Source: Gemmatimonadaceae bacterium
GTDB lineage: Bacteria > Gemmatimonadota > Gemmatimonadetes > Gemmatimonadales > Gemmatimonadaceae
Reading direction: 5' to 3'
DNA length: 64,000 nt
Assembly (NCBI GenBank): GCA_025934775.1
Contig: JAICWO010000004.1
Location: forward strand, 1-64,000
The translations under genes were made by a program, and so were the position numbers. How positions within the stretch are numbered: position 1 is the stretch's first letter; every line of letters starts with the position of its first letter. Of this stretch, positions 39,120-45,859 are shown piece after piece. The notes below the pieces were generated by a model. That model was not told where the DNA came from and made no database searches. It worked only from the letters and a program-made list of their open reading frames with translations.

Positions 39120-39587
39120 ATGCGCCTCATGGTCAACGGAGCCGCGTTCGACGTCACCGTGCCTGACCACGAGACGCTCCTCTCCACGCTGCGCGACCGA
39201 CTCGAACTCACCGGCACGAAGCTCGTCTGCGGGCGCGGCGAGTGCGGGGCATGCACGGTGCTCGTCGACGGAACCGCCGTCTACGCCTGCCTGACCCTCA
39301 CCGCCGCGTGCGAGTCGCGCGCGGTCACGACGATCGAAGGGATCGGCCGCGAGGACGCTCTCCATCCGGTACAGGCGGCGTTCATCGAGCACGACGCCGC
39401 GCAATGCGGATTCTGCACGCCGGGGCAGATCGTCGCCGCCATCGCGCTCCTCGAGCGGAATCCATCGCCCACGGAAGACGACGTGCGGCGCGGCATGAGC
39501 GGGAATCTCTGCCGCTGCGGTACGTACCCCAAGATCGTGCGCGCCGTGATGGCGGCCGCTGACCAGGCGCGAGCGGCCGATGGCTAA
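39120..39587 (+). CDS. [2Fe-2S] subunit of a molybdenum aldehyde/xanthine oxidoreductase
   Basis: The 155-residue protein has the two-cluster small-subunit pattern: plant-ferredoxin-like CGRGECGACTVLVDG with YACLT, then CGFCTPGQIVAAIAL and the second-domain pair GNLCRCGTYPKIV. It relays electrons from the molybdenum site. It lacks a Tat signal, unlike the periplasmic E. coli PaoA, so the enzyme is cytoplasmic. Its stop overlaps the large-subunit start by 8 bp. Confidence 0.95.
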   Translation: MRLMVNGAAFDVTVPDHETLLSTLRDRLELTGTKLVCGRGECGACTVLVDGTAVYACLTLTAACESRAVTTIEGIGREDALHPVQAAFIEHDAAQCGFCTPGQIVAAIALLERNPSPTEDDVRRGMSGNLCRCGTYPKIVRAVMAAADQARAADG

Positions 39588-41865
39588 TCGCTTCGTCGCG
39601 ACGAAAGTCGAGATCGAAGGACGCGAAGAAACGAAGATCGTCGAGCTGCCGGCGCGCGAACCCGCGCCGTGGGACGACGACGCGGCGCTCACCGTCGTCG
39701 GCCAACGCGTTCCGCGCATGGATGCGCTCGAGAAGGTGACGGGACGAGCGCGCTACACCGCGGACATCCAGCTCCCCAGGATGTTGTACGCCGCGATCCT
39801 GCGGGCGCCGGTCGCGAGCGGCCGTGTCACTACGCTCGATCTCTCGCCCGCGCTCGAATTGGACGGCGTGCGCGGCGCCGTCGCCCTCGACGATGTGCCC
39901 AGCATCGTGCTCGACGGCGTGCGCCTCTTCGATCGGACGATCCACTACGCCAACCAGCCGCTCGCCGCCGTCTGCGCGGACTCGCTCGAGATCGCCGTCC
40001 GCGCGCTGAACGCGATCGCGCTCGAGATCGTGTCCGAGCCGCACGTCGTGACCGCCGAGCAGGCGCTCGCATCGGGGGCGCCGCGCGTCCGGTCTTCAGG
40101 AAATACGCCGCGCAGCTCGCCCCGCATCATCTCGCGCGGCGACGTCGGCGCCGGGCTCGCGCAGGCGGACGTCGTGATCACGCGCGAGTATCGCACGCCG
40201 GCGGCGCTGCACACCGCGCTCGAGCCGCACGGCGCCGTCGCCGACTGGAACGCCGGCCGCGTCACGGTGTGGGAATCCACGCAAGGCATCTTCAACACGC
40301 GCGCGGATCTAGCGAAGGCGTTCGCGATGCCGCTGTCGTCGGTGCGTGTGATCAAGAACTACATGGGCGGCGGCTTCGGGGCGAAGAACGGCGCGTCGCA
40401 CGCGACATACATCGCCGTCGCGCTATCCAAGCTGCTCGGACGTCCCGTGCGCTGCGTGCTCGATCGCGAAGGCGAGCAGACCGACGCGGGGAACCGTCCG
40501 TCGACCGCTCAACGCGTCACACTCGGTGCGAAGCGCGACGGAACGCTCACCGCGATCAAGCTCGATGCGACGATCTCGCTCGGCATCGGCGGGTGGCTGG
40601 GCGGGCCGGGCCGGATCTACCACGAGCTCTATCGCTGCGCGAACGTCCATTCGTCGGAGACGTTCGTCTACATGAACACCGCGGCGATGTCGTCGTTTCG
40701 GGCGCCGGGACACGTCGAGGGCGCGTTCGGTCTGGAGCGCGCGATGGACGTGCTCGCGCGCGAGCTCGATCTGGATCCGCTCGAGCTGCGCCGCGCCAAT
40801 TACGCCGATCTTGCGCAGGACAAGCGCCGTCCGTACTCGAGCAAGCGGCTCGACGAATGCTACACTCGAGGCGCGCAGCGCTTCGGCTGGGGCCGCGCTC
40901 GCACGATGCCGCGTGAAAACGACGGCCGCTTCCGGCGCGGCGTTGGCATGGCGTCGCTCACCTGGGGCGCTGGCGGCGGGCCGCCGGCGTATGCGACGGT
41001 GCGCCTCAATCGCGACGGAAGCGTCGACGTGCTCACCGGCGCGCAGGATCTTGGCACGGGCGCACGCACCGTCTTCGCGCAGGTCGCGGCGGAGGTGCTC
41101 GGCGCCCGGGTTGAGCACGTTCGAACGATCCTCGGCGACACGGAGCGGCTTCCGTTCGCATCGAACTCCTGGGGATCGATCACGACCGCATCCGTCGCCC
41201 CGGCGGTACGCGTGGCGGCCGAGGAGGCGCGCGACTCGCTGTACGAAGCCGCCTCCGGCGTGCTCGGTGTTTCGCCGGACGACCTCGAGTCGTGCGACGG
41301 CGTCATTCGCGCGCGGTCGTCGGGCGCGAGCATCGCGATCGGCGACCTGTGCGAGAAGCTGGGCGACGTGATGATCATCGGCCAGGGAAGCCGCGGGCCG
41401 AACCCCGAGCAGACGCAGATCTCCGCCTTCGGCGCGCAGTTCGCCGAGGTGGAAGTCGACGTCGAGACGGGCCGCGTGCGCGTGCTGCGGATCGTCTCCG
41501 CGCACGACTCGGGACGCATCATCAATCCGACGCTCGCCGAGAGCCAGCTCGAAGGTGGGATTATTCAAGGACTTGGATACGCATTATTTGAAGAGCGCGT
41601 CCTCGACGAGCGGCTCGGACTGCCGCTCAATCCCACGATGCACGATTACAAGATTCCGACGATCGCGGACATTCCAGACATCGACGCGTTCTTCGTCGAC
41701 GGCGCGGATCCGGTGGCGAATCACACGGGCGTGAAGGGACTCGCCGAACCGCCGATCATCGGCACCGCGCCGGCGATCGCGAACGCGGTGGCGGATGCGA
41801 TTGGACGCGAGGTGGGAGAGATTCCGTTGACGCCGTGGCGGGTGCTTGACGCAACGAGGGCGTAG
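39580..41865 (+). CDS. Molybdopterin-binding large subunit of an aldehyde/xanthine oxidoreductase
   Basis: The 761-residue protein has the ALDOX/XDH domains. The active-site patches are GGGFGAK (263-269) and SFRAPG (372-377), and E723 in GLAEPPIIGT is the expected catalytic Glu. The AYxCSFR loop of CO dehydrogenase is absent, so an aldehyde, xanthine or isoquinoline-type oxidase fits. The substrate is unknown. A 30-bp AT-rich island sits at 41560-41593. The FAD subunit gene is not adjacent but 3 kb downstream (44837). Confidence 0.95.
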   Translation: MANRFVATKVEIEGREETKIVELPAREPAPWDDDAALTVVGQRVPRMDALEKVTGRARYTADIQLPRMLYAAILRAPVASGRVTTLDLSPALELDGVRGAVALDDVPSIVLDGVRLFDRTIHYANQPLAAVCADSLEIAVRALNAIALEIVSEPHVVTAEQALASGAPRVRSSGNTPRSSPRIISRGDVGAGLAQADVVITREYRTPAALHTALEPHGAVADWNAGRVTVWESTQGIFNTRADLAKAFAMPLSSVRVIKNYMGGGFGAKNGASHATYIAVALSKLLGRPVRCVLDREGEQTDAGNRPSTAQRVTLGAKRDGTLTAIKLDATISLGIGGWLGGPGRIYHELYRCANVHSSETFVYMNTAAMSSFRAPGHVEGAFGLERAMDVLARELDLDPLELRRANYADLAQDKRRPYSSKRLDECYTRGAQRFGWGRARTMPRENDGRFRRGVGMASLTWGAGGGPPAYATVRLNRDGSVDVLTGAQDLGTGARTVFAQVAAEVLGARVEHVRTILGDTERLPFASNSWGSITTASVAPAVRVAAEEARDSLYEAASGVLGVSPDDLESCDGVIRARSSGASIAIGDLCEKLGDVMIIGQGSRGPNPEQTQISAFGAQFAEVEVDVETGRVRVLRIVSAHDSGRIINPTLAESQLEGGIIQGLGYALFEERVLDERLGLPLNPTMHDYKIPTIADIPDIDAFFVDGADPVANHTGVKGLAEPPIIGTAPAIANAVADAIGREVGEIPLTPWRVLDATRA

Positions 41866-42939: not shown

Positions 42940-44343
42940 CTAGTACGCCTTCACCGCGTCGACGATCGCATTCGAGATATCGTCCTGCACCTTGAAGACG
43001 TCCGTCACGGCGCGCTCGTACATGTCCGACCAGACGGTGAATCCGTCGGCGGTGTTGACGAGGCGCGCGGTAACGCGCACGCGATCCTTGTCGCGCTGCA
43101 CGGTGCCCTCGAGCACCATGTTGACCTTGAGCCGCTTCCCAAGGTCGATCGGGCTCGTCTGCGTCGAATCCACGGCGTTGCGGAGCGAGGCGACACGAAC
43201 GCCGGGCACCCGGCTCAACGCATTCGTGAGCTCCGCCGTCATGCCATCGGCGAACGATGCGTCCTGCGCGTTGCCGTCGATATTGACGAGCGGCAGCACC
43301 GCGATCGACTTCGCCGCGGCCGCGGTCACGACGGGTGCGGCAGGAGCCGCGCCGTGTCGGTTCGTGAGCCACGCGCCGCCCGCCGCAACGGACGCGAGAA
43401 TCCCCGCGCCAGCCAACGCCCACAGCACTCGCCGCGGACGCGGCCGCTCGACGTGCGACGCGGATGCGAACGTGCCGCTCACGATCGCGGGATCCTCCAA
43501 CGCGCGCACGACTTCCGTCGCGTTGCGTGGCCGCTTCGCGGGATCCTTCTCGAGCAGCCGCATGATGAGCGCCGAGAGCGCAGCGGGAACGTCGTACCGC
43601 CGGCTGCGGATCGGCGGCGGCGGCTCGGTGAGCTGCGCCGCGAGAAGCTGCTGCGGTGCGCGACCGTGGAACGGCGGCGTGCCGACGAGCATCTCGTAGC
43701 CAACGATTCCGAGCGCGTAGAGATCGGCGCGATGGTCGGTCGCGGGATCACCCGCCGCCTGCTCCGGCGCCATGTACGCCGGCGTTCCGATCGAGGTGCC
43801 GATACTCGTGATCGTGCCGGTGCGCGGGCCGGAATGCAGCCGCCCTTCGCGCGACGCCGAGAGCGCCTTCGCCACGCCAAAGTCCGTGACCGTGGCCGCG
43901 CCAGCCGGCAGCAGGATGTTGTCCGGCTTGATGTCGCGATGGATGATGCCGCGGCCATGCGCGTACGCAAGCGCGCGCGCCACATCCTTCATGATGTTCA
44001 CCGCCTCACGCGCCGAGAGCGGGCCGCGCCCGAGCCGCACGCGCAGCGACTCGCCTTCGACGAACGGCATGATGAAGAACGGCAGACCGTCGGTCTCGCC
44101 CGCGCTGAGCACAGGCACGACGTGCGGATGTTGCAGCGCCGCGGAGAGCATGATCTCGCGCTTGAACCGGTCGACCGAGACGGTGGCCGCGAGCTCGTAC
44201 GGGAGGACCTTCACCACGACGGTGCGACCAAGTCCGTTGTCGCGCGCGACGAACACCGACGACATGCCGCCGCCACCGAGCTCTCGCTCGAGAGTGTAGT
44301 CAGCGCCCAGCGTGCGCTGCAGCTCGTCGCGTAAGACAGTCAC
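42940..44343 (-). CDS. Membrane Ser/Thr kinase with a C-terminal FlgO/TolB-like domain
   Basis: The 467-residue protein has its kinase domain at about residues 16-280: GGGGMSSVFVARD, VVVKVL, HRDIKPDNILLP, DFGVAKAL and GTPAYMAPEQAAG. One membrane helix (about 304-325) follows. An extracytoplasmic domain (about 345-467) starts SIAVLPLVNIDG and continues with FADGMTAELTNAL and VWSDMYERAVTDVF, which matches the FlgO/adenylate-cyclase-associated domain of many gemmatimonad kinases. Relatives usually continue with TPR repeats; this one stops after VDAVKAY, so it is shortened. The G-loop differs from GxGxxG with an extra Gly. Confidence 0.9.
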   Translation of the reverse strand: MTVLRDELQRTLGADYTLERELGGGGMSSVFVARDNGLGRTVVVKVLPYELAATVSVDRFKREIMLSAALQHPHVVPVLSAGETDGLPFFIMPFVEGESLRVRLGRGPLSAREAVNIMKDVARALAYAHGRGIIHRDIKPDNILLPAGAATVTDFGVAKALSASREGRLHSGPRTGTITSIGTSIGTPAYMAPEQAAGDPATDHRADLYALGIVGYEMLVGTPPFHGRAPQQLLAAQLTEPPPPIRSRRYDVPAALSALIMRLLEKDPAKRPRNATEVVRALEDPAIVSGTFASASHVERPRPRRVLWALAGAGILASVAAGGAWLTNRHGAAPAAPVVTAAAAKSIAVLPLVNIDGNAQDASFADGMTAELTNALSRVPGVRVASLRNAVDSTQTSPIDLGKRLKVNMVLEGTVQRDKDRVRVTARLVNTADGFTVWSDMYERAVTDVFKVQDDISNAIVDAVKAY

Positions 44344-44503: not shown

Positions 44504-44532
44504 TTCGCACCCCAAGCGATCCCGATTATATT
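44504..44532 (+). promoter_or_regulatory. Promoter of the small membrane protein gene
   Basis: TTCGCA (44504-44509) is followed after 17 bp by TATATT (44527-44532); the start would be near 44539, about 31 nt before the ATG, with GAGG as a ribosome-binding site. Confidence 0.5.
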
Positions 44533-44569
44533 CCCTGCTCACGCGAAAGACCGCCTCTCGAGGACGCTG

Positions 44570-44779
44570 ATGGCCGAACACGTCGATCGTTACATCCCCG
44601 CCAATACGAACTCCGGGTGGGGTATCGCCTCGCTGATCATCGCGCTCGTGATTCTGTGTATCGTCACGGCGACGTACATCCACAAAGAGAACTACAAGCA
44701 CCCGACCGACCCGACCTGGCACGGCGTCGGGTCTGGCGATGACGCACAGGCGCCGATTCACACGGCCGAACATCCCTGA
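44570..44779 (+). CDS. Small single-pass membrane protein, conserved-looking but unrecognised
   Basis: The 69-residue protein has one hydrophobic helix (IASLIIALVILCIVTATYI, about residues 19-37) between a short hydrophilic N-terminus and a His/Asp-rich C-terminal tail. I do not recognise it. Its own promoter-like boxes and a perfect intrinsic terminator directly after it suggest a strongly expressed single-gene unit. Coding reality is supported by GAGG before the ATG and by the expression signals, not by homology. Confidence 0.7.
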   Translation: MAEHVDRYIPANTNSGWGIASLIIALVILCIVTATYIHKENYKHPTDPTWHGVGSGDDAQAPIHTAEHP

Positions 44780-44801
44780 GCGCATTCAGTCGAGACGATA
44801 T

Positions 44802-44830
44802 GGCGGGACCGCTTGGTCCCGCCTTTTTTT
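44802..44830 (+). terminator. Strong intrinsic terminator
   Basis: GGCGGGACC (44802-44810) and GGTCCCGCC (44815-44823) form a 9-bp stem with loop GCTT, followed by T7 (44824-44830). It ends the transcript of the small membrane protein. It lies before the GTG of the FAD subunit, ruling out an upstream start at 44813. Confidence 0.95.
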
Positions 44831-44836
44831 ATTGCC

Positions 44837-45811
44837 GTGAGCCATCCCTTTCTCTACCGCCGCGCTACGTCGTCCGACGAGGCCGCGCAGCTCCTCGGCG
44901 AGCCGGGCGCCGTGGCGCTCGGCGGCGGCACCGATCTCCTCACCGCGATCGCGGAAGAGATCACGCTGCCCGACAGGCTCGTGGATCTCCGGACGATTCC
45001 GGGACTCGATCAGATCGAAGTTCTTGGCGACGAAACCGTGCGCGTCGGCGCGGCGGCGACGATCGCGACACTTGGCTCGCACCCGTCGATCCGCGAGCGA
45101 TACGCCGTGCTCGCGCAAGCATGCGACGTGGTCGGAACGCCGGCGCTCCGCAACATGGGCACGATCGGCGGAAATCTCTGTCAACGGCCGCGCTGCTGGT
45201 ATTTTCGGCGCGCGATTCCGTGTCTCAAGAACGGCGGTCCATCGTGCCCCGCGGTGCACGGCGAGAATCGGTATCTCGCGATCCTGAACGGCGGTCCCTG
45301 CCATGTCGTGCACCCGTCGGATCCCGCGGTTGCGCTCGTGGCGCTCGGCGCGCGCATCGAGATCGCCGCGGTCGGCGGAACGCGCGAGGTGCCGATCGCG
45401 GACTTCTTCGTGCTGCCGTCGGAGTGCATCGATCGCGAGACCGTGCTGCACCCCGGCGAGTTCGTCTCGGCCATCCTCCTGCCGCCGGAGACGGCCGGCG
45501 GCGTGCAGCACTATCACAAGCTGATGCAGCGCGAGGCATGGGACTTCGCCCTCGCGAGCGTGGCCGCCTGCCGCGACGCGAATGGAGACGTCTCGCTGGT
45601 GCTCGGCGGCGTGGCGCCGCGGCCCTGGCGCGTGAGCTCCTCGGTGGAAGAAGACGTCGCCTCGGGCGCGGCGGGCGCCGGCCTGGACGACGAGAGCATT
45701 GCCGCCCTGGCCGAACGGGCGTTGTACGACGCCGTGCCGCTCTCGAAAAACGGCTACAAGGTGGAGCTGGCGGCGGCGCTGCTCCGGCAAGCCATTCGCG
45801 CACTGGTATAA
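44837..45811 (+). CDS. FAD / [4Fe-4S] subunit of the molybdenum aldehyde/xanthine oxidoreductase
   Basis: The protein has 324 residues from the GTG at 44837, which follows the terminator. It has the CO-dehydrogenase-flavoprotein-type FAD motif ALGGGTDLLTAI and the segment NMGTIGGNLCQRPRCWYFRR. A run of cysteines continues with PCLKNGGPSCPAV and GGPCHVVHPSDP. This extra Cys set matches the PaoB/YagS type of FAD subunit, which binds a [4Fe-4S] cluster in addition to FAD. It completes the enzyme encoded at 39120-41865 but is separated from those genes by four others. Confidence 0.9.
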   Translation: MSHPFLYRRATSSDEAAQLLGEPGAVALGGGTDLLTAIAEEITLPDRLVDLRTIPGLDQIEVLGDETVRVGAAATIATLGSHPSIRERYAVLAQACDVVGTPALRNMGTIGGNLCQRPRCWYFRRAIPCLKNGGPSCPAVHGENRYLAILNGGPCHVVHPSDPAVALVALGARIEIAAVGGTREVPIADFFVLPSECIDRETVLHPGEFVSAILLPPETAGGVQHYHKLMQREAWDFALASVAACRDANGDVSLVLGGVAPRPWRVSSSVEEDVASGAAGAGLDDESIAALAERALYDAVPLSKNGYKVELAAALLRQAIRALV

Positions 45812-45818
45812 TAAAACA

Positions 45819-45851
45819 CGAAAGCCCGGCGGCCGTGCCGCCGGGCTTTCG
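45819..45851. terminator. Bidirectional terminator between the FAD subunit and the Ig-like lipoprotein
   Basis: A 15-bp perfect stem (45819-45833 with 45837-45851, loop CGT) begins CGAAAGCCCGG. A-rich sequence on its left side gives a U-run for leftward transcription. Confidence 0.85.
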
Positions 45852-45859
45852 TCGCCGGA

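Follow-up and report, generated by a model that had tools for sequence, protein, structure and literature searches.

The window, which is the whole 64,000-nt stretch of DNA analysed, carries on its plus strand a gene for a 69-amino-acid single-pass membrane protein, named SMP here, which its pattern of substitution marks as a genuine coding gene under purifying selection and which, as far as seen, appears to be restricted to the Gemmatimonadaceae. We tentatively propose, with a confidence somewhat short of an even chance, that SMP is a lineage-specific, single-pass accessory subunit docking on a larger membrane complex. The gene and its flanking signals were located as follows.

44504-44532, plus strand: sigma-70-type promoter-like element (TTCGCA, 17-nt spacer, TATATT), 9/12 matches
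44504-44509, plus strand: TTCGCA, the −35 hexamer
44527-44532, plus strand: TATATT, the −10 hexamer
44560-44563, plus strand: Shine-Dalgarno-like GAGG, from the sequence
44570-44779, plus strand: SMP gene, ATG start, stop codon included, 69 aa; supported by homologues and purifying selection
44618-44692, plus strand: codons of the predicted helix, residues 17-41, from AlphaFold2
44802-44830, plus strand: intrinsic terminator with a 9-bp stem, a 4-nt loop and T7; hairpin GGCGGGACCGCTTGGTCCCGCC at 44802-44823, followed by TTTTTTT

An earlier note on this DNA had described a 69-residue protein with one helix, a promoter with a 17-bp spacer and a 9-bp stem followed by seven T residues, and all three were present at these positions: the ORF encodes a single hydrophobic segment that AlphaFold2 modeled as one helix, and the promoter-like element and the terminator lie upstream and downstream of it, respectively.

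Comparison of the window copy with six relatives from its own genus gave dN/dS ratios of 0.24-0.38, and the third codon positions were the most changed in all 21 pairs analysed, one of which was saturated in dS and yielded no ratio. A search with a 42-row profile found SMP in 124/179 Gemmatimonadaceae genomes and in 82/105 of the better genomes (≥90% complete, ≤5% contaminated); with the single window protein as the query, 89/179 family genomes matched. Orthologues, which the earlier note had proposed to search for and whose absence would have spoken against its small protein, thus exist. The matches obtained with a 62-row profile at E values up to 0.1 fell into two groups separated by a wide gap, the strong ones at E 1.8e-17 or better and the weak ones at 0.0086 or worse. 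No strong match was found in 55/179 family genomes, so SMP is not essential family-wide, unless diverged copies were missed. Three single-contig genomes of the genus g9 carry the gene. Type I toxins are patchy, multicopy and paired with an antisense RNA antitoxin, whereas SMP is widely spread and gave one strong match per bearer in 123/124 genomes. The exception, the MAG G118 (5% contamination), holds two copies (loci L033 and L034), each accompanied by kinase, FAD-subunit and sufB genes, which reflect either a paralogous region or contamination.

In a sample of the phylum, 102/395 genomes matched SMP, all of them from the same genus or family; since at most 15 candidates per genome were scored, a very diverged homologue could have escaped this sample. 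Phyla beyond Gemmatimonadota were covered solely by the scan for close relatives among GTDB contigs, which gave one relative, a 68%-identical protein from a Gemmatimonadaceae MAG, with the same gene order as in the window (kinase, small gene, FAD subunit, sufB).

The window SMP reached the curated cut-off of no family in Pfam or NCBIfam, and the 62 members gave scattered weak matches to these libraries (best E 0.0035 and 0.003, respectively). A sequence-profile search of PDB chains returned no matches up to E 10. The term "undescribed" used in the earlier note therefore stands in the sense that the searches of Pfam, NCBIfam and PDB sequences turned up nothing that matches SMP convincingly; judged by sequence, it is a family-restricted kind of protein without a description in the libraries searched. 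A phage search gave no matches at E 0.01, and Rfam gave three matches, each under its gathering score, one of which fell on the hairpin. Literature searches on Gemmatimonas and Gemmatimonad- (combined with cryo-EM, cytochrome or subunit, small proteins, proteome, and leaderless), assessed at the level of the listings, returned nothing recognisable as SMP. A likeness between SMP and helix 1 of subunit II of ba3 oxidase was supported by no search and is not claimed.

The AlphaFold2 model consisted of one helix spanning residues 17-41, with mean pLDDT values of 98 for residues 21-30 and 94 for residues 31-40, and loose ends (mean 78.1). In an alignment of 62 members (L003, the same contig as L002, was kept out of the alignments), G16 was invariant and W17, A20, A34, T41 and P45 were present in at least 90% of the rows. 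Conservation was concentrated on one face of the helix, as indicated by the moment for residues 19-41 (p 0.0044), and this moment was weak when the membrane core, residues 19-36, was taken alone (p 0.049). Small residues occupied positions 20, 27 and 34, in heptad spacing, in 98%, 71% and 92% of the rows, and a Thr followed at position 41, seven residues beyond position 34, in 61/62 rows; in the window SMP, position 27 is Val and position 41 is Asn. The GASLeft helix-packing code (PMC7495484) consists of small residues in heptad spacing. SMP resembles it in its mostly small side chains and in the spacing of positions 20, 27 and 34; the two differ in that the code is a packing pattern rather than a family, as well as in the Thr of SMP at 41 and the 71% share of small residues at 27.

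The segment following the helix was also strongly conserved (H38, T41, Y42, P45). His was the last residue in 35/62 members, in which it is often preceded by a tail that is rich in Ala and varies in length. Lys and Arg residues were more numerous on the C-terminal side of the helix in 48/62 members and on the N-terminal side in 4/62, with ties in 10/62. By the positive-inside rule, this asymmetry suggests that the N-terminus of SMP is outside and its C-terminus is cytoplasmic.

A docking role would bring these features together as follows. SMP would be made from a stand-alone gene with its own promoter, the small-residue heptad face of its helix would dock on the helices of a larger membrane complex whose genes lie elsewhere, the IHKxTYxxP segment would lie at the cytoplasmic edge, and the protein would be an accessory or stabilising subunit that takes no part in catalysis. 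Several points weigh against this proposal: the weak moment in the 19-36 core, the Val27 and Asn41 of the window copy, and the 55 family genomes in which a strong match is missing. The same helix face would, moreover, serve self-association, and a conserved small-residue surface fits self-packing as well as docking. An SMP homo-oligomer acting on the membrane or envelope, for example under stress, is also in keeping with the lack of a constant genomic partner; nevertheless, we regard it as unlikely, if with an appreciable chance, given that the conserved H38, T41, Y42 and P45 suggest a contact more specific than one with lipid or with the protein's own helix.

AcrZ and MgrB are examples of small membrane regulators. 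SMP would fit this type in its size, its single helix and its stand-alone transcription, and could accordingly regulate one particular enzyme or protease, or dock on it as a peptide, rather than be a structural subunit; however, a target was indicated by none of our analyses, and we consider this role fairly improbable. Returning to an accessory subunit, we hold a similarly doubtful view of the idea that the complex concerned is one of the core complexes for energy conversion or translocation in the Gemmatimonadaceae, to which SMP adds an extra lineage-specific subunit. If that were true, the Gemmatimonadaceae version would have a part unknown in model bacteria. Should SMP prove to be a subunit at all, a membrane complex of this little-studied group of bacteria would turn out to contain a lineage-specific part. 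Among small membrane proteins that are still uncharacterised, SMP represents a clearly conserved case, with one gene per genome and a defined conserved face.

Small single-pass accessory subunits are known from respiratory oxidases, CydX in cytochrome bd and CcoQ in cbb3 oxidase. SMP resembles both in size, in having one helix and in carrying no catalytic motif, and differs from them in that it has no Pfam or NCBIfam match and does not lie beside an oxidase in the loci queried. CydA was present in 70/124 SMP-bearing and 25/55 non-bearing genomes (p 0.20), and a CydX-type subunit was rejected because the occurrence of SMP did not track that of CydA. CcoN exceeded the cut-off in 67/124 bearers compared to 7/55 non-bearers (p 9e-8, not corrected for ancestry); counted the other way, SMP was present in 67/74 genomes with CcoN over the cut-off and in 57/105 without. 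This association is strong and probably due to ancestry. The 57 bearers lacking CcoN over the cut-off, among them all six genomes of the genus g1, led us to reject a CcoQ-type subunit as well. Neither CydA nor CcoN was found in 25 bearers, some of them nearly complete (e.g. G037 and G141), which indicates that SMP has no obligate partner in either the bd or the cbb3 oxidase.

The neighbourhood of SMP was conserved over a limited range. Of the 20 loci of the genera g1, g2, g3, g21 and g28, 14 had a gene for the FAD subunit of a molybdopterin dehydrogenase downstream of SMP and on its strand, 17 had sufB downstream and 13 had a Ser/Thr kinase upstream. The 41 loci of other lineages showed different neighbours, namely a DinB polymerase (11) or a thioredoxin-like protein (7) upstream, an M1 peptidase, also upstream (3), and a fatty-acid hydroxylase as the next gene downstream (4). 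With queries chosen from crude gene calls, no neighbour was constant over the family. The gene had been called "solo", and this description fits in that a terminator precedes the next gene and that a family-wide constant neighbour is lacking, but not within the nearest genera, where the gene order is conserved. Retention of SMP while its neighbours change suggests that an operon partner is probably not needed and that the partner of SMP, if any, is probably encoded elsewhere in the genome.

The recurrence of the FAD-subunit gene in 14 of the 20 near loci is what would be expected if SMP were part of the molybdopterin dehydrogenase and the hairpin an attenuator before that gene, and the FAD-subunit start codon in the window (GTG, 44837) lies 6 nt past the T-tract with no evident Shine-Dalgarno sequence. 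We nonetheless judge this arrangement highly improbable, because the FAD subunit was not found downstream in the remaining 6/20 near loci, nor near SMP in the 41 loci of other lineages, which lie on contigs of varied length. The dehydrogenase genes are split in the window, with those for the 2Fe-2S and molybdopterin subunits at 39120-41865 and that for the FAD subunit at 44837-45811, about 3 kb away, with genes for YhbY, an M23 protein and the kinase lying between them on the opposite strand. The kinase (42940-44343, minus strand) contains a FlgO-like stretch at its C-terminus (Pfam E 4.6e-5).

The expression signals were assessed in the window and across loci. Between positions 40000 and 50000 there were 3 promoter-like sites compared to a shuffle mean of 0.8, so the promoter match by itself is weak, and a loose terminator scan of the same region gave 5 sites compared to 5.2 expected, which is chance level. 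A promoter match or a loose terminator, each alone, proves little. A TATATT or TACATT −10 hexamer was present upstream of SMP in 10/10 loci of the two nearest genera, g1 and g3, a result that represents recurrence and not an independent test, since the pattern was picked from the alignment of these loci; the −35 element was conserved weakly, less than the −10. In a wider near group, the hexamer occurred in 11/21 loci against a shuffle mean of 0.9. It was unenriched in distant lineages (3/41 loci, shuffle mean 1.1), which counts against an accessory subunit made from a gene with its own promoter.

The distance from the −10 hexamer to the start codon differed among loci. At L002, L033 and L034, the last two from one genome, only 6-8 nt separate the end of a −10-like hexamer from the SMP start codon, and a Shine-Dalgarno sequence is absent; the messages of these three loci may therefore have no leader or hardly any (leaderless messages). 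At L032, L036 and L039, as in the window, the hexamer lies 35-38 nt from the start and is accompanied by a Shine-Dalgarno-like sequence.

A stricter definition of the terminator (a stem of at least 7 bp with at least 5 G-C pairs, and at least 5 T residues among eight positions, 2 of them within the first three) left four sites in the 64-kb window, counted over both strands, that of SMP included. The earlier note had called such clear expression signals rare in this window, and this proved true of strong terminators; loose ones occurred at about their expected number in 10 kb. The note's further reading of SMP as strongly used is a conjecture, on which the signals and the conservation bear only indirectly. 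Across the family, strict terminators followed SMP in 21/61 orthologues (L071, with a 56-base stretch, was left out) compared to 5/2440 shuffles, which preserved base composition only. By genus, they were found in 6/7 loci of g1 and 0/3 of g3. The 40/61 loci without a strict terminator count, like the distant promoters, against a docking subunit expressed from a stand-alone gene. The weakest alternative holds that both the ORF and its signals arose by chance. In its favour, DNA as rich in G+C as this contains many spurious ORFs (88 of at least 50 aa overlap 13 kb), but the alternative is refuted by the family-wide conservation of SMP and by the third-position bias in every pair. Further downstream, the minus strand of the window carries a 16-bp hairpin and, after it, a T-rich stretch (45818-45852), located between the convergent genes of the FAD subunit and a Big_2-domain protein.
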